DNA from: Streptomyces sp. NBC_01237
GTDB lineage: Bacteria; Actinomycetota; Actinomycetes; Streptomycetales; Streptomycetaceae
NCBI RefSeq assembly: GCF_035917275.1
Contig: NZ_CP108510.1
Location: forward strand, 248,001-312,000
Direction: 5' to 3'
DNA: 64,000 nucleotides
Positions 35,474-48,761 of the stretch are shown in pieces. Positions within the stretch are counted from its first letter, which is position 1. The number at the start of each line of letters is the position of its first letter. A program made the position numbers and the translations under genes. The notes beneath the pieces are model-generated. The model had not been told where the DNA came from, did not search any database, and worked only from the letters and a program-made list of their open reading frames with translations.

Positions 35474-35882
35474 CCGGCTCCGCAGCAACCGCGCGGCACC
35501 CACGGCACCCGCACCGGCCGTTCCCCGTCCGCCGACGCACACCGTCCGAACACATTTCTCACACACATATGGGGACAGGCGTCGACAACTAAACCGAGTA
35601 CCCGTTACGTTATTTCCGTTCCGCAGCCTCACGCGGTGGGAACGGCCACCGTGGTACTCGCGCCTTGCTCGGCACATGGTCTGGCCCTTGAGTCGCTTCG
35701 GTCGCTGAGAGGAAGCGCATTGCCCCTTCACCTGGCATTTCACGGAAGTGGGTCGGGACCGCGCACCTCTCACCCCTGTCATGGAAAACCCGCCGTGAAC
35801 CGTGGGCCCGCCGAAAAGGCGCGGAGCCCACGGACCACACGATTACGGCGGACGCCTGCTCGGCCGACGGCGGGGAGAGACC
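35474..35882 (+). other. Intergenic region with a relict origin iteron
   Basis: This 409-base gap before the orphan helicase holds TTGAGTCGCTTCGGTCGCT at 35688-35706. That 19-mer is identical to the one just upstream of the prim-pol start (43152-43170, opposite strand). Here no prim-pol gene follows, so the site looks like the residue of a third replication module that lost its primase gene. No gene is supported in the gap. Confidence 0.6.
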
Positions 35883-37547
35883 GTGGCTGAGGGCATCAGA
35901 CACGAGGCGGAAACTGCCCTCTCCCGGCAGAACGCCGCCAAGGAGCCCGGACGTGAGAACCGGCTCCTCCAGATCGTGCACAGTGCCCCCGCCGATCCGG
36001 CCGCCCCGGCCGACCGTCCACGGACGGCCGGTATCCGGCAGTCGTCCACCCGCAGGACCAAGAAACGCCTCACCACTCCCCCGGACTCCGTCCGCACGGG
36101 CCTGTTCGGCCAGGCCGGGGCGCACTCGCACCCCGCGGCACCCGAACAGGCCGATACGGCAGGGCTGTTACCGGACACGCTGACGGACCGGGGCAGCGCG
36201 AAGCTCTTCGCCTCCCTGCACAGCAACCGGTTCCGCCATGTACCGGGCCTGGGCTGGTACCAGTGGTCGGGCAGTCGCTGGCAGCTCGACGAGAACGAGT
36301 GCGTGCTCTGGGCGGCCGGGGAGATGGCCGAGTCCCTGGCCCTGTCCGACCCCTCCGGGGCACACACGGCCGCGGCCCTGCGCCTCCACCGCCGACGGGC
36401 CCTGTCGACATCCGGCATCAGAGCCATGCTGGTGCAGGCGAGGTCGGCGCCGGGGATGGTGTTGAGTGCGGGGGTGCTGGACGCGGATCCGTATGTGCTG
36501 TGCACTCCCGCGGGGGTGGTGGATCTGCGGTCGGGGGTGCTGCGGGTCCCGGACCCGGACCGGGACTTCCACTCACGGTCGACGTCGATCGGACCGCGGC
36601 GGATGCCGACCCCCCGCTGGGACCGGTTCCTGACCGACACGTTCGGCGACGACGACCAGGGCGCGGAAATGATCCGCTTCCTCCACCTCCTCCTGGGCTA
36701 CTCCCTCACCGGCGACGTCGGAGCCCAGGTCATGCCGTTCCTCTTCGGCTCCGGAAAGAACGGCAAATCGGTCCTCCTCGACGTCCTCATCAAACTCCTC
36801 GGCGACTACGCCGACGCCGCACCACCCGGCTTCCTCATGGCCCGCCCCTTCGAAGGCCACCCCACCGACCTCGCCGAACTCCACGGCCGCCGCGTCATCG
36901 TCTGCTCCGAAGTCAAACCCGGCGACCGCTTCGACGAAGCCCGCGTCAAACTCCTCACCGGCGGCGACCGCATCAAAGCCCGACGCATGCGCCAGGACTT
37001 CTTCTCCTTCGCCCCCACCCACAAACTCTGGCTCCTGGGCAACCACCGCCCCGAAGTCGGCACCGGCGGCTACGCCTTCTGGCGACGCATGCGCCTCATC
37101 CCCTTCGAACGCGTCGTCTCCGACCACCGCAAAATCGACAACCTCGCCGACATCCTCGTCACCGAAGAAGGACCCGGCATCCTCAACTGGCTCATCACCG
37201 GAGCCCACCACTACCTCAACAGCCCCCGCGACCTCACCGGACCCGAAACCGTCCGCATCGCCACCACCGCCTACGCCGAAACCGAAGACCACACCGGCCG
37301 ATTCCTCAACGAATGCTGCACCCACCAACCCCACCACCGCGTCGAACAAGCCCACCTCTACAACGCCTACAAAACCTGGTGCAGGCTGGAGGACACGAGC
37401 CCCGTCTCGTCGAGGGCCTTCGCCGGCCGGGTACGCGAGTCGGTCGGCCTCGCCGATCACCGCGTGATGCTGCTGTCGAACCAGCGCAAGTACTACCCCG
37501 GCATCGGCCTTCTGACGGACAGTGAGTTCCTGCCCGAGCCGCAGTGA
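35883..37547 (+). CDS. D5/P4-type replication helicase, orphan copy
   Basis: A 554-residue plasmid/phage primase-helicase of the D5-N/P4 type. The SF3-like ATPase has Walker A GSGKNGKS near residue 290, Walker B-like RRVIVCSEV, and sensor block LWLLGNHRPE. The N-terminal ~110 residues are basic and unlike the other two copies. The middle, encoded by 36432-37381, is identical to that of the helicase at 40474-42027, while both ends differ. The GTG at 35883 follows GGGGAGAG. There is no prim-pol gene upstream, only an iteron relic, so this looks like a converted or duplicated orphan. Whether it is active cannot be told; the frame is intact. Confidence 0.85.
   Translation: MAEGIRHEAETALSRQNAAKEPGRENRLLQIVHSAPADPAAPADRPRTAGIRQSSTRRTKKRLTTPPDSVRTGLFGQAGAHSHPAAPEQADTAGLLPDTLTDRGSAKLFASLHSNRFRHVPGLGWYQWSGSRWQLDENECVLWAAGEMAESLALSDPSGAHTAAALRLHRRRALSTSGIRAMLVQARSAPGMVLSAGVLDADPYVLCTPAGVVDLRSGVLRVPDPDRDFHSRSTSIGPRRMPTPRWDRFLTDTFGDDDQGAEMIRFLHLLLGYSLTGDVGAQVMPFLFGSGKNGKSVLLDVLIKLLGDYADAAPPGFLMARPFEGHPTDLAELHGRRVIVCSEVKPGDRFDEARVKLLTGGDRIKARRMRQDFFSFAPTHKLWLLGNHRPEVGTGGYAFWRRMRLIPFERVVSDHRKIDNLADILVTEEGPGILNWLITGAHHYLNSPRDLTGPETVRIATTAYAETEDHTGRFLNECCTHQPHHRVEQAHLYNAYKTWCRLEDTSPVSSRAFAGRVRESVGLADHRVMLLSNQRKYYPGIGLLTDSEFLPEPQ
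36432..37381 (+). repeat. 950-bp inverted repeat, left copy
   Basis: This block appears identical to the reverse complement of 40628-41577 wherever I compared it, including the matching antisense reading frames. The edges are sharp: the next base differs at both ends and the flanking helicase parts are only similar. It lies wholly inside the orphan helicase gene. See the partner copy. Confidence 0.85.
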
Positions 37548-37605: not shown

Positions 37606-37658
37606 ATTATCACGGCGTGATAATTCACCGCCGGTCCGGATTATCACGCCGTGATAAT
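37606..37658. repeat. Two parS-like palindromes
   Basis: ATTATCACGGCGTGATAAT (37606-37624) and ATTATCACGCCGTGATAAT (37640-37658) are 9+1+9 perfect palindromes, differing only in the central base. They lie in the gap after the orphan helicase. Six more copies occur at 43.8 kb and in parB, so they are the probable ParB binding sites. Confidence 0.8.
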
Positions 37659-37682: not shown

Positions 37683-38084
37683 CTACTTCGGCCGGGTGAT
37701 GCCCAGTTCACGCATGGCGGTGGAGGGCGGCCCGCCCTCGGAACGCTCCGTCTTGTAGCCCTTCGTCCCCGTGGCCAGGGTCCGGGGATCGACCGACTCG
37801 GACGGCGCGCCGGTCGCGTACAGGCCCTCGGGGTCGATGTCCCGGTCGTGCGGCAGCAGCCAGAACACCCGCCGCCGGAACGTCCCCGACGAACGCGACG
37901 CCTTGGCCTCCGGTCCCAGGACCGCGTATCCGACCATGCGTCCGTCACGGTGGTAGGCGGGCCTGCCGCGCCGGGTGGGCAGCCGGTCCAGGCTCTGCCG
38001 TACGTAGTCCAGCACGGACACATCCTCCAGCCAGACCAGCTCCGCCTCGTCGCTGATCTCTTCCTCGTCGATCAGAGCACTCAC
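37683..38084 (-). CDS. Replication-module small protein, copy 1
   Basis: A 133-residue acidic-start protein I do not recognise. Two relatives occur here (40076-40477, about 88% identical; 56286-56672, more distant), each after a replication helicase. Shared blocks are IVWLE/LVWLE-D, LDYVRQ-LD, GRPAYHRDGRMVGY and RRRVF-LLPHDRD, ending in a basic tail. This copy starts at GTG 38084, and upstream of it is only a scrap of a helicase 3' end, so it is detached from its partner. It has no signal or membrane segment. A helicase-partner or regulatory role is inferred from linkage alone. Confidence 0.7.
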   Translation of the reverse strand: MSALIDEEEISDEAELVWLEDVSVLDYVRQSLDRLPTRRGRPAYHRDGRMVGYAVLGPEAKASRSSGTFRRRVFWLLPHDRDIDPEGLYATGAPSESVDPRTLATGTKGYKTERSEGGPPSTAMRELGITRPK

Positions 38085-40075: not shown

Positions 40076-40477
40076 TCACAGCGGAAGCGTTATGCCCAGT
40101 TCGCGCATGGCGGTGGAGGGCGGCCCGCCCTCGGAACGCTCCGTCTTGTAGCCCTTGGTACGGGCGGTCAGGGTCCCCGGGTCCACGGCTTCGGCGGGTG
40201 CCCCGGTCGCGTACAGGCCCTCGGGGTCGGTGTCCCGGTCGTGCGGCAGGAGCCAGAAGACGCGGCGGCGGAAGGTGCCGGAGGACCTCGACGACTTGGC
40301 CTGCGGGCTGAGCAGGGCGTATCCGACCATGCGTCCGTCGCGGTGGTAGGCGGGCCTGCCGCGCCGGGTGGGCAGCCGGTCCAGGCTCTGCCGTACGTAG
40401 TCCAGCACGGACACATCCTCCAGCCAGACCAGCTCCGCCTCGTCGCTGATCTCTTCCTCGTCGATCAGAGCACTCAC
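40076..40477 (-). CDS. Replication-module small protein, copy 2
   Basis: A 133-residue protein of the same unnamed family as 37683-38084 and 56286-56672. Here the arrangement is intact: its GTG start overlaps the helicase stop by four bases (GTGA), so it is translationally coupled to the helicase. Conserved features are DEAELVWLEDVSVLDYVRQSL, the basic patch RRGRPAYHRDGRMVGY and FRRRVFWLLPHDRD. No known domain is recognised. The linkage in all three copies suggests a protein that works with the primase-helicase at the origin, for example in loading or copy control; that is inference. Confidence 0.75.
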   Translation of the reverse strand: MSALIDEEEISDEAELVWLEDVSVLDYVRQSLDRLPTRRGRPAYHRDGRMVGYALLSPQAKSSRSSGTFRRRVFWLLPHDRDTDPEGLYATGAPAEAVDPGTLTARTKGYKTERSEGGPPSTAMRELGITLPL

Positions 40478-42027
40478 TCTGCCTCCTCCTCGACGAGCAG
40501 ACCCACGCCCGGGTAGTACTTGCGCTGGTTCGACAGGATCATCTCCTTCGGCGACGAGAGCCCTGCCAGCTCTCGCACCCGAGCGGCGAACGCCCGGGAG
40601 GAGACAGCGGAAACGCCTTCATTCTGACACCAGGTTTTGTAGGCGTTGTAGAGGTGGGCTTGTTCGACGCGGTGGTGGGGTTGGTGGGTGCAGCATTCGT
40701 TGAGGAATCGGCCGGTGTGGTCTTCGGTTTCGGCGTAGGCGGTGGTGGCGATGCGGACGGTTTCGGGTCCGGTGAGGTCGCGGGGGCTGTTGAGGTAGTG
40801 GTGGGCTCCGGTGATGAGCCAGTTGAGGATGCCGGGTCCTTCTTCGGTGACGAGGATGTCGGCGAGGTTGTCGATTTTGCGGTGGTCGGAGACGACGCGT
40901 TCGAAGGGGATGAGGCGCATGCGTCGCCAGAAGGCGTAGCCGCCGGTGCCGACTTCGGGGCGGTGGTTGCCCAGGAGCCAGAGTTTGTGGGTGGGGGCGA
41001 AGGAGAAGAAGTCCTGGCGCATGCGTCGGGCTTTGATGCGGTCGCCGCCGGTGAGGAGTTTGACGCGGGCTTCGTCGAAGCGGTCGCCGGGTTTGACTTC
41101 GGAGCAGACGATGACGCGGCGGCCGTGGAGTTCGGCGAGGTCGGTGGGGTGGCCTTCGAAGGGGCGGGCCATGAGGAAGCCGGGTGGTGCGGCGTCGGCG
41201 TAGTCGCCGAGGAGTTTGATGAGGACGTCGAGGAGGACCGATTTGCCGTTCTTTCCGGAGCCGAAGAGGAACGGCATGACCTGGGCTCCGACGTCGCCGG
41301 TGAGGGAGTAGCCCAGGAGGAGGTGGAGGAAGCGGATCATTTCCGCGCCCTGGTCGTCGTCGCCGAACGTGTCGGTCAGGAACCGGTCCCAGCGGGGGGT
41401 CGGCATCCGCCGCGGTCCGATCGACGTCGACCGTGAGTGGAAGTCCCGGTCCGGGTCCGGGACCCGCAGCACCCCCGACCGCAGATCCACCACCCCCGCG
41501 GGAGTGCACAGCACATACGGATCCGCGTCCAGCACCCCCGCACTCAACACCATCCCCGGCGCCGACCTCGCCTGCACGAGGAGTGCGTTCATCCCCGACG
41601 TGCTCAGGGCGCGGCGGCGGTGCTTGCGCAGGGCGGCGTCGGAATGGATGCCCCGGGGGTCGGTGGTGGCGATGCTCTCCGCCATCTCCCCCGCGGCCCA
41701 CAGCACGGTGTCGTCGTCGTCGCTCTGCCAGCGGGTGTTGTCCCAGCGGTACCAGCCCAGGCCCGTGACATGCCGGTAGTCGTGCGCGTAGAGCTTCACG
41801 AAGAGCTTCGCGTTTCCCCGGTCCGTCAGGGTGTCCGGCATCAGTCCGGCGGCCGAGACCTGTTCGGGGAGGAGGGACGTCCCGGACTGCGCGGGTACGG
41901 GTACGGTCCCCGGCCCTGCGGACGCGCCCGGGGACATGGTCGCGCGGGCCGTCGTCTGGGCGATGATCTGCGCGGCCACGGCCTGGGCGTCGAAGTCGAA
42001 CAGCGAACCGTCACCGGTCGATGTCAT
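40474..42027 (-). CDS. D5/P4-type replication helicase
   Basis: A 517-residue SF3-like replicative helicase. The N-terminal part has the DRGNAKLF motif and a D5-N-like region (LVQARSAPGM). Walker A is GSGKNGKS, followed by RRVIVCSEV and LWLLGNHRPE. The C-terminal region NQRKYYPGVGLL is a winged-helix-like tail. It overlaps the prim-pol stop and the small-protein start by four bases each, so three genes form one coupled operon reading away from the iteron region. The 950-bp centre is identical to the orphan helicase at 35883-37547. This is very likely the active helicase of origin 1. Confidence 0.9.
   Translation of the reverse strand: MTSTGDGSLFDFDAQAVAAQIIAQTTARATMSPGASAGPGTVPVPAQSGTSLLPEQVSAAGLMPDTLTDRGNAKLFVKLYAHDYRHVTGLGWYRWDNTRWQSDDDDTVLWAAGEMAESIATTDPRGIHSDAALRKHRRRALSTSGMNALLVQARSAPGMVLSAGVLDADPYVLCTPAGVVDLRSGVLRVPDPDRDFHSRSTSIGPRRMPTPRWDRFLTDTFGDDDQGAEMIRFLHLLLGYSLTGDVGAQVMPFLFGSGKNGKSVLLDVLIKLLGDYADAAPPGFLMARPFEGHPTDLAELHGRRVIVCSEVKPGDRFDEARVKLLTGGDRIKARRMRQDFFSFAPTHKLWLLGNHRPEVGTGGYAFWRRMRLIPFERVVSDHRKIDNLADILVTEEGPGILNWLITGAHHYLNSPRDLTGPETVRIATTAYAETEDHTGRFLNECCTHQPHHRVEQAHLYNAYKTWCQNEGVSAVSSRAFAARVRELAGLSSPKEMILSNQRKYYPGVGLLVEEEAE
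40628..41577 (-). repeat. 950-bp inverted repeat, right copy
   Basis: Partner of 36432-37381 in opposite orientation. The 3.2-kb interval between the copies contains two parS-like sites, a small protein gene, a membrane protein gene and an AhpD-like gene. Recombination between the copies would invert it. The abrupt edges inside both genes fit recent gene conversion. Confidence 0.85.
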
Positions 42028-43817: not shown

Positions 43818-43887
43818 ATTATCACGCCGTGATAATCGCCCCCGTCCCGTCTCCCGGCCCGGCTGCTGACTATCACGGCGTGATAAT
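43818..43887. repeat. Two parS-like palindromes upstream of parA
   Basis: ATTATCACGCCGTGATAAT at 43818-43836 is perfect; ACTATCACGGCGTGATAAT at 43869-43887 has one mismatch. They lie 72-141 bases before the parA start and are likely ParB sites for segregation and possibly for autoregulation of parAB. Confidence 0.8.
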
Positions 43888-43898
43888 TCCCCATCTGG

Positions 43899-43956
43899 GC
43901 AGTGAAAACTAACGTGTCGCGTCCCCAACAGCGCCACTTCGTTAGTAAAGTTCACT
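43899..43956 (+). promoter_or_regulatory. parA promoter inverted repeat
   Basis: AGTGAAAACTAACG (43899-43912) and CGTTAGTAAAGTTCACT (43940-43956) are near-complementary arms around a GC-rich centre. The second arm ends two bases before the parA ATG, leaving no clear ribosome-binding site. This could be an operator or an mRNA fold that limits parA translation. Confidence 0.45.
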
Positions 43957-43958
43957 GC

Positions 43959-45197
43959 ATGGCTTCCCCCGCTACCCCCGGCGACCGCGAGAAGGTCGTC
44001 TCCAAACTGCCCGGACAGCTCCGGCAGGACCTCAAGGTCCGCGCCGCTCAGCTCCGTATCGAGATCCAGACGGCCGTCGAGCAGTCCGTCGACATCTGGT
44101 GCGGTCTCGCCTCGACGTCGGCCGCGGTCGACACCTCGGGCGCCGACTCCTTCTCCACCTGGCTGCCCGTCGGCCAGTGGGACACCTTCAAGTCCACGGC
44201 GGCCGACCGCAAGGTCTCCCTCATCCAAGGTCTCGCGCAGGCGGTCCAGGTCTGGCTCCGGGCCAACCCGGCCCCGACCGTGGAACGCCCCGAGATCCCC
44301 CGCCGCATCATCGTCTGCAACCAGAAGGGCGGCGTCGGCAAGACCGCGATCACCGCCGGGACCGGCGAAGCCCTGGCCGAGGACTCCGGTGCCCTCTATC
44401 CCGTACGGGTCTCCAAGCACTTCGCCGCACTCCTCGACGAGAACGGCTCCGACCCGCTGACCCTCGAAGACCTCCCCGGCATGGGCCTGCGGGTCCTCCT
44501 GGTCGACTTCGACCCGCAGTGCCACCTCACCAAGCAGCTCGGCTACACCCCGCTGCCGATGGACGGCGACAGCCTCACCAAGCACATGGCGGGCGACGCC
44601 ACCGGTGAGCTCCGCGATCTGATCGTGCCCATCGAGGAAGAACGCTTCGGGCAGCGGCTCCACTTGCTGCCGAGCTGCAACGACGCCTTCCTCCTCGACG
44701 TACGCCTTTCCGGTGTACGAGCGAGGGAAGCGGCGCTGGAGCGGGCCCTCGCCCCCGTGGAGGCGGACTTCGACGTCATCATCGTTGACTGCCCGCCCAG
44801 CCTGGGCCTGAGCATGGACGCCGCCGTGCACTACGGCCGCCGCCGGGGCAATGAGGCACCGGGCTCCTCCGGCGCACTCATCGTGGTCCAGGCGGAGGAC
44901 AGTTCGGCCGATGCCTATGACCTGCTCACCACACAGATCGAGGACCTCCGGGGCGACCTGGCCCTGGAGCTCGACTACCTCGGAATCGTCGTCAATCACT
45001 ACGACGCCCGCCGCGGCTACATCGCCACGTCCTCGCTCCAGGCGTGGATGGACATAAAGGAACCCCGTGTCGTCGGTGTCATCGGGGACCTGAAGGAACA
45101 GAAGGAAGCAGTACGGCTCAAGCGGCCCCTGCTCGCGTACGCCCCCAAGTCCGACCAGGCGGTCGGCATGCGTGCCCTCGCACGGGAGATCTCATGA
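43959..45197 (+). CDS. parA: ParA-type partition ATPase
   Basis: A 412-residue ParA. The deviant Walker A motif is KGGVGKTAI near residue 127, Walker A' is LLVDFDPQCHL and Walker B is VIIVDCPPSLG. The N-terminal 115 residues form an extra region typical of type Ia partition ATPases. An insert between the A and A' motifs (DENGSDPLTLEDLPGMG) is longer than usual. It drives plasmid segregation with ParB. The ATG at 43959 is preferred, although no good ribosome-binding site precedes it. The stop overlaps parB by four bases (ATGA). Two parS-like sites lie just upstream. Confidence 0.95.
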   Translation: MASPATPGDREKVVSKLPGQLRQDLKVRAAQLRIEIQTAVEQSVDIWCGLASTSAAVDTSGADSFSTWLPVGQWDTFKSTAADRKVSLIQGLAQAVQVWLRANPAPTVERPEIPRRIIVCNQKGGVGKTAITAGTGEALAEDSGALYPVRVSKHFAALLDENGSDPLTLEDLPGMGLRVLLVDFDPQCHLTKQLGYTPLPMDGDSLTKHMAGDATGELRDLIVPIEEERFGQRLHLLPSCNDAFLLDVRLSGVRAREAALERALAPVEADFDVIIVDCPPSLGLSMDAAVHYGRRRGNEAPGSSGALIVVQAEDSSADAYDLLTTQIEDLRGDLALELDYLGIVVNHYDARRGYIATSSLQAWMDIKEPRVVGVIGDLKEQKEAVRLKRPLLAYAPKSDQAVGMRALAREIS

Positions 45198-46372
45198 GCA
45201 AGGCCGACAAGCTCGGGGCCGGCGCGTCGTTCGGCCAGGCCCGTGCCGTCAGTGCCCGGCGCGCCGCGATCGGAGCCGCCACCGGTGCGCCCACGACAGG
45301 TGTTCCGAACCCCACGGAACTGCCCGTCGGTGTCATCAGCCAGAACCCGGACAACCCCCGCGACCACCTCCGGGACCTCGAAGGGATGGCCGAGAGCGTC
45401 CAGGAGCTCGGTGTCGTCAACGCCATCACCGTCGCCGCCGTCGACGCCTACCTCCGTGAGCGCCCCGACCGCGCGGCCGATCTGGACGAAGGCGCCACCT
45501 ATATCGTCATCGACGGCCACCGCCGTCTCGAAGGCGCTCGCCGCGCCGGGCTGAAGACCATCAAGGTCCAGGTCGACAACGCACGGGTCGCGACCGACGA
45601 GGCACTGCTCGAAGCCGCCTTCGTCTCCAATGTGCAGCGCGACAACATGACCGATCTGGAACAGGCCCACGCCCTCGACGCCCTGGTGACGTTCTACGGG
45701 AGCCAGACCAAGGCGTCCAAGCGCCTCGGGCTCTCCCAGGCGTCGATCTCCTCCAAGCTCTCCCTGCTGAAGCTTGCACCGGATCTGCAGGCCGAACTGG
45801 TGACGGGGGAGCGCCAGGTGGAACACGTACGCAACCTCGGCAAGCTGAGCGCGGAGGAACAGCGCGCCGCCGCCGACGCACGAGCCTCGGACGCGGCGCG
45901 GCGCCGACGCCGGTCGAAGCCCGCGAGCACGGCGGAACCTGTTGCGGATTATCACGCCGTGATAATCCGAGACGATCAGCCGACGGGGGAGTCCGCCCCC
46001 TCGGGCGATTATCACGGCGTGATAATCGCTGATGCCGGCCCGACGGGCGAGTCCGACCGGTCCGGGGATTATCACGCCGTGATAATCCGCGACGAGGAGT
46101 CGACGGGGGAGCCGGACAGCGCCGACGATTATCACGCCGTGATAATCGCTGAGGCCGACGCGACCGACGCCGAACCGGGCGCCCCCGCGCTGCCGTCCCA
46201 GTCGGGCGGCCACGAGGCCCCGGGGGCAAGCGATGCCGCAGCCGGCGGGGGAGTGCCCTGGCACGACCCGGTCGCTCTCGCCGCGATGATCTGCGCCCAC
46301 ATGCCCTACCAGGAGCGCACCCGGCTGACCCTGCTCCTGGCCGAGAAGAACCGCGCCGAGCTCAAGGGCTGA
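45194..46372 (+). CDS. parB: ParB partition protein with parS-like sites in its own coding sequence
   Basis: A 392-residue ParB. The N-terminal nuclease-like domain has IDGHRRLEGARRAGLKTIKV, followed by VSNVQRDNMTDLEQAHAL and the HTH TKASKRLGLSQASISSKLSLLK. After a basic linker, residues about 252-320 hold four 20-residue repeats each starting DYH[A/G]VII. These seven residues are the in-frame reading of the 19-bp palindrome ATTATCACGCCGTGATAAT, so four candidate binding sites lie within the gene at exact 60-base spacing. Each forces a rare ATA codon. The C-terminal part (VALAAMICAHMPYQERTRLTLL) is probably for dimerisation. The start overlaps parA. Confidence 0.95.
   Translation: MSKADKLGAGASFGQARAVSARRAAIGAATGAPTTGVPNPTELPVGVISQNPDNPRDHLRDLEGMAESVQELGVVNAITVAAVDAYLRERPDRAADLDEGATYIVIDGHRRLEGARRAGLKTIKVQVDNARVATDEALLEAAFVSNVQRDNMTDLEQAHALDALVTFYGSQTKASKRLGLSQASISSKLSLLKLAPDLQAELVTGERQVEHVRNLGKLSAEEQRAAADARASDAARRRRRSKPASTAEPVADYHAVIIRDDQPTGESAPSGDYHGVIIADAGPTGESDRSGDYHAVIIRDEESTGEPDSADDYHAVIIAEADATDAEPGAPALPSQSGGHEAPGASDAAAGGGVPWHDPVALAAMICAHMPYQERTRLTLLLAEKNRAELKG
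45948..46146 (+). repeat. Four 60-bp units with intragenic parS-like palindromes
   Basis: Palindromes at 45948-45966, 46008-46026, 46068-46086 and 46128-46146 are all perfect and spaced exactly 60 bases apart. The central base is C, G, C, C. The intervening 41 bases are only partly alike (CGACGGGGGAG recurs), so the palindrome is the conserved element. Confidence 0.92.
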
Positions 46373-46453: not shown

Positions 46454-46496
46454 GGTATGTCCGCTGCCGAAGATACGATGCCGACGGGAGGTGCCC

Positions 46497-48761
46497 ATGT
46501 CCGAATTGTTCGACGCCGTCGACGCACTGATCGCCGGGCAGTCGTCGCTGCCCCCGACCGCCGAGCGGGAGCGGCTGCGCAAGGCCCACGGGCTGAGCCA
46601 GGAGCAGGTGGCGGCTGCGCTGAAGGTCCGTCGCGCCACGGTGGTCTCGTGGGAGAACGGCAGGACGGAGCCGCGTCCGCCCCAGCGCGAGGCATACGCA
46701 CGGCTGCTGACCCAACTCGCCGAGCTCTACCCCGCCGAACCGGCCGCCCCGGCTCCCGTCCCCGCCCCGGCGCCGGTGGCTCCGGCCCCGGCCGCCCAGG
46801 CTCCGGCCCCCGCGCCGGCAACTCCCGAGCCGGTCGCTCCCGAGCCGGCCGCCGAGGTCGCCGAACCGGCCCCCGTGTCTCCGGCAGCGAGGAACACCGC
46901 GGCTCGTGGTCCGGCCGGGCAGCCCCCCCGAACCGTGAAATCCACCACGTCGAGAACCACCACGTCGAGAACCACCAGAGCCAGGACCGGCACCCCCACC
47001 CCCACCACGCCGGCCGCCGCCGTGCCCCCCGACCCCCGCTTCCTGAACGGCCCGCTCGGCGTGCTCGACGGCGACGGATCGCTGTACTGCGTCGGCGGCC
47101 TGGTCCTGGACTGCCCGGCCACGACCGTCGCCTCCCTCGTCGAATGGACCCTCGCCGAGGCGCGGCTCGGCAGCCCCCGGCTCCACCGCAGCGGCAAGGA
47201 CGGCGACCCTCTCGTCGTCCTCACAGCCGCCGCCGCCGAGCGTCTCGGACTGCCCGCGACGCTGGAGGACCGCAGGGGCCTGCGGCTGCCCGAGAACCAC
47301 AAGGTGGTCCAGCAGGTGACGAAGGCGCGGTGGCAGCTCACCCGGCGCGGCTTCGGCCCCTGGACGCGGATCTACCGCCCGGTGCAGTCCGGGCAGCGCC
47401 AGTGCGTCCAGTTCGCGGTCCTGCCGTGGGGTGCGCTGGACACCCGCTCCTGGGGCGCCGCCGACCGCATGCCGCCGGAAGAACTCGCCGCGGTGCTCGG
47501 TACGTTCGCCCGGCGGGTCATCACCCCGCGCGGCTCCACCGCCGTGTCCGGACTGGAACTGATGACCGCGCTCCGTCCGCCGACCAGGGCGGTGCCGGAC
47601 GGGACCACCGGCGCATGGACGTCGGGCCCGGTCGCCGGTTCCCTGGCCGAGCCGGTCGACCCCGCGCCCCCGGAGGCCCCCGACGAACACCCGGTCGCCG
47701 CCGCCCTGTTCCCCCGGGGCCACCGGCGTACCCCGGCCGAGGTCCTCGACGAAGAGGCCTACGAGTGGGTCCGGGACCCGCAGTTGCTCACCGACGCCGA
47801 ATGCGAGCGGAAGTACGCGGTGGGCATCGACGTCAACACGGCCTTCCTCGCCGCCGCCAACCGCCTCCTCGTCGGCCTCGGCGCACCGGTCCACGTACGG
47901 GCGCCCGTCTTCGACAAGGCGGTGCCCGGTTCCTGGCTGATCGATCTGTCCGGCATCGAGCTGGACCCCCGGCTGCCGTCCCCCTTCACCCCGCACGGCG
48001 TACGCCCCGACGGCCCGGCCTGGTACGCGACTCCCACCGTGGCGTACGCGTACGAGCTCATCGCCACCTACCGGCTGCCCGTCACGGTCGCCCCGCTGGA
48101 GGCCTGGGTCCGTCCGGAGTCGGGGCCGTACCTGGACCCCTGGTACAAGCACCTCAGCGAGGCGTACAAGACGACGATGGCCGACCTCGGTGTCGGCTCC
48201 GGCGTGGGGGAGGAGGAGTTCCTCGCGGCGATGGCCACCCACAAGGAGACCGACCCGGGCATGGGCACCGTCCTGTCCGCGATCAAGTCCACGGTCAAGG
48301 GCGGCATCGGGAAGCTCCGGGAACGCCCGCAGGGAGCGTCGTACAGGTACGGGGACCGGTGGCCCGCGCTGGAACGCCCGACCTGGCGCCCGGACATCCG
48401 GGCCGCCGTCATCTCCGCCGCCCGGATCAATATGCACCGCAAGATCCTCAAGACGGCGCTGGCCACTCAGTCCTCGCCCGCCCCGGCCGGGCATCTCACG
48501 TTCGACGAGGACGCGTTGATCCCCGTGGCGCTGCTGTCCGACTGCGCGGTCTACCTCGCCGACGGCCCCTCACCGCTGGACGTCCTGCCCCGTACCCCCG
48601 AAGGAAAGCCCGCCCCCGGCAGCTTCCGCCTCGGGGTGTCCCCCGGCATGGTCAAGCACGAGGGCACCCAGGACCTCCTGTGGGCCGTGCGGATGCTCGA
48701 CGAGGGCCACAACCCGGCCCGGCACATCAAGGGCAACGACGCCGCCGACGACGGAGAGTAG
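46497..48761 (+). CDS. tap: Telomere-associated protein Tap
   Basis: A 754-residue protein of about the length of Streptomyces Tap (roughly 740 residues), which binds the 3' overhang of linear replicons and recruits the terminal protein Tpg. It begins with a helix-turn-helix (RLRKAHGLSQEQVAAALKVRR, then TVVSWENGRTEPRP), followed by a Pro/Ala-rich linker to about residue 125. The large C-terminal domain includes YAVGIDVNTAFLAAANRL and IKSTVKGGIGKLRERP. The ATG at 46497 has GGGAGG upstream. The tpg gene follows nine bases later, as in all known tap-tpg pairs. It shows the window belongs to a linear replicon with its own telomere system. Confidence 0.93.
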   Translation: MSELFDAVDALIAGQSSLPPTAERERLRKAHGLSQEQVAAALKVRRATVVSWENGRTEPRPPQREAYARLLTQLAELYPAEPAAPAPVPAPAPVAPAPAAQAPAPAPATPEPVAPEPAAEVAEPAPVSPAARNTAARGPAGQPPRTVKSTTSRTTTSRTTRARTGTPTPTTPAAAVPPDPRFLNGPLGVLDGDGSLYCVGGLVLDCPATTVASLVEWTLAEARLGSPRLHRSGKDGDPLVVLTAAAAERLGLPATLEDRRGLRLPENHKVVQQVTKARWQLTRRGFGPWTRIYRPVQSGQRQCVQFAVLPWGALDTRSWGAADRMPPEELAAVLGTFARRVITPRGSTAVSGLELMTALRPPTRAVPDGTTGAWTSGPVAGSLAEPVDPAPPEAPDEHPVAAALFPRGHRRTPAEVLDEEAYEWVRDPQLLTDAECERKYAVGIDVNTAFLAAANRLLVGLGAPVHVRAPVFDKAVPGSWLIDLSGIELDPRLPSPFTPHGVRPDGPAWYATPTVAYAYELIATYRLPVTVAPLEAWVRPESGPYLDPWYKHLSEAYKTTMADLGVGSGVGEEEFLAAMATHKETDPGMGTVLSAIKSTVKGGIGKLRERPQGASYRYGDRWPALERPTWRPDIRAAVISAARINMHRKILKTALATQSSPAPAGHLTFDEDALIPVALLSDCAVYLADGPSPLDVLPRTPEGKPAPGSFRLGVSPGMVKHEGTQDLLWAVRMLDEGHNPARHIKGNDAADDGE

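Follow-up and report, generated by a model that had tools for sequence, protein, structure and literature searches.

The window (the whole 64-kb stretch of DNA analysed here) contains a parAB pair whose features are collected in Table 1. The parB start codon overlaps the stop of parA, and the encoded protein scores 33.1 bits with PF02195 and 38.7 bits with PF17762, both exceeding the cut-offs. The nearest solved chain is that of Caulobacter ParB (6t1f, E 3.7e-19), and by sequence alone the window ParB can be aligned to the CTPase part of that structure, including the GHRR and NVQR segments. An AlphaFold2 model made with 32 sequences is confident in the N-terminal, HTH, and C-terminal parts; residues 252-352 have pLDDT below 50 and are without secondary structure in the model. 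A close relative of this genome is that of Streptomyces sp. TSRI0281, the ParB of which is 97% identical.

Table 1. Features of the parAB locus (positions in the window)
Feature	Position	Strand	Basis or remark
parA (ATPase)	43902..45197	+	Pfam AAA_31 1.1e-21; start uncertain, GTG 43902 or ATG 43959
parB, 392 aa, type-I HTH ParB	45194..46372	+	Pfam ParB_N and HTH_ParB above cut-off; start ATG 45194
HTH recognition segment of ParB, residues 180-191, LSQASISSKLSL	45731..45766	+	alignment to Caulobacter ParB 6t1f
Predicted ParB linker with array, residues 252-352	45947..46249	+	AlphaFold2 model
In-gene palindrome copy 1 (predicted parS)	45948..45966	+	pattern search
In-gene palindrome copy 2 (predicted parS)	46008..46026	+	pattern search
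In-gene palindrome copy 3 (predicted parS)	46068..46086	+	pattern search
In-gene palindrome copy 4 (predicted parS)	46128..46146	+	pattern search
C-terminal helical part of ParB, residues 355-392	46256..46369	+	model helices 359-369 and 372-391
Palindrome upstream of parA	43818..43836	+	exact match
Palindrome upstream of parA, one mismatch	43869..43887	+	pattern search
Distal palindrome between ORFs	37606..37624	+	exact match
Distal palindrome between ORFs	37640..37658	+	exact match

The 19-bp palindrome ATTATCACGsCGTGATAAT has eight matches in the window when up to three mismatches are allowed, and the mean over 100 shuffles was 0.00. In the complete 10.19-Mb genome (four contigs) it is found at these eight places only, all on the contig of the window and all within 9 kb that include parAB; the backwards control gave 0. 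Four copies are inside parB, and all four fall in the predicted linker. An earlier note on this DNA had described these four copies as being in one frame at a spacing of 60 bp, each reading DYH[A/G]VII, and both statements hold: the 15-bp core starts at codon position 1 in every copy, beginning at ParB residue 253 in the first. The note was also right that the spacers vary more than the palindrome and that the codon ATA is rare. Across the four 60-bp units, variation among the palindrome columns is confined to the central C/G (20 of 21 invariant), as against 10 of 39 invariant columns in the spacers. Outside the array, ATA accounts for 2 of the 123 isoleucine codons counted in ten ORF stretches of the window. 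Going by window codon usage, the chance of the exact 15-bp core, given its five residues, is 3.4e-4 per copy. The four additional copies that the note placed at 37.6 and 43.8 kb are present, but only three of them are exact.

The distal pair of palindromes sits between position 37547, on the side of a D5-type gene, and position 37683, on the side of a DUF6009 gene. The window has two largely alike genes of each type, those of the D5 type on opposite strands (35802-37547 and 40474-42027) and those of the DUF6009 type on the same strand (37683-38084 and 40076-40477); in each pair one copy was identified by Pfam and the other from the ORF list.

Two other plasmid-type parB genes of this genome also have palindromes within them. 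One, near 8.018 Mb of contig C1, holds three copies of GATAACG-N-CGTTATC. The other, near 8.168 Mb (C1:8163500-8172500), holds one copy of TTCAAAACC-N-GGTTTTGAA, which is also present twice upstream; this palindrome is quite unlike that of the window. No exact canonical parS (GTTTCACGTGAAAC) was found within the chromosomal parB ORF.

ParB matches at E <= 1e-20 were obtained in 131 of 392 genomes of the genus. The 19 genomes whose ParBs are closest (E <= 1.7e-84, a threshold chosen after seeing which loci had the core) all contain the 15-bp core, as against 11 of the 373 others, and the backwards pattern is present in 2 of 392. A few cores lie apart from any intact ParB match. L125 and L126, both in genome G310, are parB remnants with two in-frame sites each, in the SRRD frame and 81 bp apart, and L124 is an ORF end with LSRRD at the start of a contig; the core places L127, L129, L130, L131, and L132 may be chance matches.

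A de novo search revealed that more distant ParBs go with other palindromes of the same geometry. The loci were surveyed in two sets, into which 112 of at least 150 listed ParB places entered. The first set comprised 110 stretches (the window, 7 loci, 2 plasmid records, and 100 fetched regions), of which 102 had a ParB; removal of three identical ParBs, L131 (a weak match), and L096 (a run of N) left 97 loci. The second set comprised 60 loci with more varied ParBs, 40 from additional genomes and 20 from further ParB places of the first draw. The surveyed loci are related, so that the counts given here are not counts of independent events.

When a palindrome was defined from the flanks of parB only, one was obtained in 72 of the 97 loci of the first set and recurred within parB in 51 of these 72, as against 3 of 576 tests with the palindromes of other loci. 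L061, with a palindrome out of register, and L115, where a G+C-rich palindrome ranked first, were scored as misses. For the second set the corresponding numbers were 24 of 60 and 14 of 24, with other classes recurring in 2 of 264 tests. No flank-defined palindrome was obtained in 25 loci of the first set and 36 of the second. Both of these flank-only tests are free of post hoc choice of arms and of recurrence inside parB. A fixed list of eight arms, picked after seeing the de novo palindromes, placed the cognate palindrome in parB in 65 of 84 cases versus 1 of 588 for non-cognate palindromes. The broadest search, which also counts recurrence inside parB alone, identified 106 of 157 parAB loci, distributed over 16 arm classes, whose recurring palindrome has at least one copy in parB; in the other 51, parB has no recurring palindrome. 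After one synonymous permutation per parB, the 106 loci dropped to 4, and in 90 loci of the first set 130 sites were observed versus 3.0 expected under synonymous permutation. A recurring palindrome is likewise present in 86 of 1001 other open frames of at least 300 codons, on either strand.

The number of copies per parB is one in 58 of the 106 loci, two in 28, three in 8, and four in 9; six, seven, and twelve copies were found once each. Sites of the eight arms are absent from seven loci (L065, L066, L075, L077, L093, L118, and L134). Five of them form two ParB groups, L065/L066 and L075/L077/L093, which have typical recognition helices and no known-arm palindrome in the DNA examined. At the other extreme, a Streptomyces violascens contig (L006) has 21 copies of the 15-bp core over ~5.4 kb around parAB, one of them in parB. 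In 16 loci of the ATTACG class a copy lies 427 bp before the parB start, where parA is expected.

The presence of a parS inside a parB-type gene is already known, from SCP1, SCP2, and Bacillus subtilis. The two systems of SCP1 from Streptomyces coelicolor, ParABS1 and ParABS2, are described in the passages used here of a recent paper (McPhillips et al., NAR 2026, PMC13245405). ChIP-seq and binding assays reported there have ParB2 binding a 19-bp inverted repeat, of which a 15-bp core is sufficient, and ParB1 binding a 13-bp repeat; ParB-enriched areas are ~15-20 kb wide, ParB2 clamps and slides with CTP and spreads from its repeat, and parABS2 is dispensable in the laboratory. Each SCP1 parB gene has one internal parS, which was recoded synonymously for complementation (PMC13245405). 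Both systems, like that of the window, belong to a Streptomyces plasmid and have a homologous ParB with type-I HTH, inverted-repeat parS around parAB, and parS in parB. SCP1 has three sites per system, one of them within parB, whereas the window has eight, with an array of four within parB. Those passages draw no family-wide, reading-frame, or array conclusion. The window palindrome and parS2 agree in the 19-bp length and the 15-bp core and, going by length, core length, homology, and position, may be the same site; the 13-bp ATTACG-N-CGTAAT class agrees in length with the repeat of ParB1.

As stand-ins for SCP1 we used the S. anthocyanicus plasmids NZ_CP109276 and NZ_CP109103, which we take to be SCP1-like and pSV1-like. 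Over the aligned part their ParBs have 56-57% identity to the window ParB, or 64% in the best BLASTP segment, and both parB genes contain the core of the window, one copy each (L042 and L043). NZ_CP109276, which is linear and 387 kb long, has one parB locus of the window class with four 13-bp copies, one in parB, and a second of the ATTACG class with two copies, one inside the parB ORF. L043 comes from a circular record.

In SCP2, the sequence that codes for the centromere-binding protein ParT contains an 18-bp parS (PMC12260392). This resembles the window in that the site is inside the gene of its own reader, but, as far as the cited passages go, ParT is without a CTPase domain and there is one site. 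Similarly, parS-359 of B. subtilis lies in parB (PMC4442127), although that system is chromosomal and a single site is named in the passages cited. A search of 5.39 million open-access papers found the 13-bp ATCACG or ATTACG sites with C or G centre in print in none of them, and among the matches listed in a search of the same scope no title or abstract start mentioned parS arrays in parB or a frame rule. Beyond the known cases of parS in parB, new here are the family-wide recurrence in the survey of 157 loci, the arrays of up to 12 copies, the use of frames, the loci with copies in parB only, and recognition-helix residues that go with palindrome class, apart from some exceptions.

These comparisons, made at the level of sequence, make it highly probable that the four palindromes are ParB-binding parS sites in the linker-coding stretch of parB, in which case part of the centromere would reside in the gene. 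Since many related parB genes have palindromes of their own in the same stretch, parB likely doubles as a part of the centromere. The earlier note had proposed that this plasmid has placed its centromere within the partition gene. The proposal is supported by the lack of synonymous drift in homologues, the reading of one DNA site in two frames, the recurrence in parB of the flank palindromes of more distant relatives, and the published case of a homologous ParB with an internal parS, but four of the eight copies are outside parB, and the arrangement, although present here, is peculiar neither to this plasmid nor to linear plasmids.

The question then is whether the in-gene sites serve partition or act mainly as an operator. 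As an operator, ParB bound within its own gene would block or slow transcription and thereby set its own level, and partition would depend on the outside sites. Two copies are located just upstream of parA, as autoregulation predicts; a search for promoters in front of parA was negative, so that autoregulation through the outer sites stays presumptive. For SCP1, an allele of parB1 without the internal parS1 gave partial complementation, and the passages cited offer the missing site and an altered ParB1 level as equally likely causes (PMC13245405). We nevertheless consider a mainly regulatory role unlikely. In 14 of the 106 loci, or of the 157 surveyed, there is no copy outside parB in the DNA examined (up to ~4 kb on each side, some stretches ending at contig ends), and in the 11.5-Mb genome G104 the only exact 13-bp matches are the two copies inside parB. 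Arrays of up to 12 copies, moreover, seem to be beyond what a roadblock needs. Genome G082 has a single 15-bp match, located within parB, and one more 13-bp match far off.

Instead of by ParB, the palindrome could be read by the N-terminus of ParA or by the HTH protein at 46491-48761. The latter is of the HTH_3 type and adjoins parB, and neighbors of that type often bind palindromes. We regard another reader as very unlikely, because palindrome class follows the ParB tree, with 13 changes versus 43.9 when shuffled, and goes with the residues of the ParB recognition helix, and because the homologous ParB2 binds a repeat of the same size (PMC13245405, passages cited above). Clustering on the tree cannot by itself name the reader. 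The tree was made by a quick method that leaves 35 of 93 inner branches open, and counts of class and frame changes are therefore approximate. The recognition segment is [ASN][TS]ISSKLS in the ATCACG class, [PA][YF]ISQRLS in ATAACG, GW[VI]SQRL in most ATTACG loci, and AWVSQRL in TTAACG. Beyond the main ATTACG group, glycine 183 is also present in the ATTACG loci L062, L142, and L143. It is absent from three of the 49 ATTACG loci (L071, L104, and L122), and the ATTACG-type helix also occurs in L100 (ATTACC), L087 (ATTGCG), and some loci lacking sites; the recognition helix therefore does not fully fix the class. In the alignment to 6t1f, Q182, S187, and K188 of the window ParB correspond to R173, N178, and T179 of Caulobacter ParB (numbering shift of ten, counted by hand), positions that contact DNA or bear on specificity according to the passages cited (PMC7383237).

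Two loci have mixed sites. L062 has flanks of the ATTACG class, and its copies in parB (nt 778 and 826) are hybrids with an ATAACG left half and a CGTAAT right half. Relative to the sister class the right half differs only synonymously, and the left half would need a change of Asn to Tyr; the hybrids are possibly a snapshot of a switch in specificity. L087 has two related palindromes, ATTACG upstream and in parB, and ATTGCG four times downstream.

Could the array be a young tandem duplication without a function? The units are in tandem, and L049 has twelve 39-bp units that hardly differ from one another. Furthermore, a 332-aa relative (P0006) is shorter by 60 residues, or three units, and keeps one repeat, which fits recombination between copies 1 and 4. 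In the window, however, the spacers have diverged and the palindromes have not, and a single in-gene copy is retained in many lineages and classes, so we give this explanation even less credence than a different reader. The spacing of in-gene copies among relatives ranges from 33 to well over 100 bp, the sole common factor being three, as the frame requires; on these grounds we discarded helical phasing as an explanation of the 60-bp spacing.

In the linkers of the 97 ParB loci, all 19 YHxVI peptides of the ATCACG class are encoded by the exact 15-bp palindrome, including the codons TAT and ATA, and so are 41 of the 44 copies with SRRD peptides, the other three having lost the last base of the core. 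The same DNA site of this class reads DYHxVII at some loci and LSRRD at others; for 23 loci the quick tree requires at least three frame changes. Among the best 120 protein relatives (119 used, one being too short), 32 have YHxVI or NHxVI, 75 have SRRD, none has both, and 12 have neither. That the 20-residue peptide repeat was selected, with the palindrome as a by-product, is the least credible explanation of all and was rejected, for although most classes encode a peptide of the form x[YHN]x[AG]V[IN], the exact codons are kept, the LSRRD group reads the same DNA in a different frame, the observed sites far outnumber those expected under synonymous permutation, and the peptide changes along with the flank palindrome. 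The conclusion of the earlier note that selection acts on the DNA rather than on the peptide is borne out by these data, and the check that it proposed on homologues, for drift at synonymous sites, uncovered none.

All 199 in-parB copies sit in frames without stop or TTA codons. In thirteen classes there is a single such frame, which is the one used; the ATCACG class employs both of its two such frames, and in two classes one out of three is used. Stops are impossible in any open gene, so only the absence of TTA is informative. TTA, the bldA-dependent codon of Streptomyces, is in any case missing from all parB genes examined (0 of 56,851 codons).

With the palindromes as parS sites read by ParB, a mechanism can be outlined. 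ParB would most likely nucleate on the in-gene sites, close as a clamp, and slide, as published for ParB2 of SCP1. The sliding ParB would coat parAB and the DNA around it, for segregation driven by ParA, and the array in the linker would provide several loading points beside parAB. The linker is presumably the tolerant part of ParB, able to hold sites because it is predicted to be unstructured, with the reading frame being one that avoids stop and TTA codons. Sites in the gene of their own reader would keep the two linked when DNA recombines or specificity changes, and they may also dampen parB transcription. Possible gains are of three kinds: more loading, damped expression of parB, and a reader and site that cannot be parted by recombination of the sort that the passages cited propose for SCP1 and pSV1 (PMC13245405).

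More generally, partition genes of Streptomyces plasmids may be self-addressed centromeres, in which the ParB linker stores and multiplies arrays of its own site and rewrites them upon a change of specificity, so that reader and centromere form a single gene that evolves and moves as a whole, the array being the sole centromere in some plasmids. We offer this broader proposal tentatively and place it somewhat short of an even chance. If it is true, one gene records the specificity of the centromere in two forms, the recognition helix and the site read by that helix, and the 16 arm classes with their apparent switches would be a natural set of ParB-site classes for studying how protein and site change together. 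Whether in-gene parS arrays serve loading, autoregulation, or the inseparability of the parts of the partition system would also become testable. In practice, the centromere of an uncharacterized plasmid could be predicted from a palindrome in its parB linker, and parB constructs should be synonymously recoded, as was done for SCP1.
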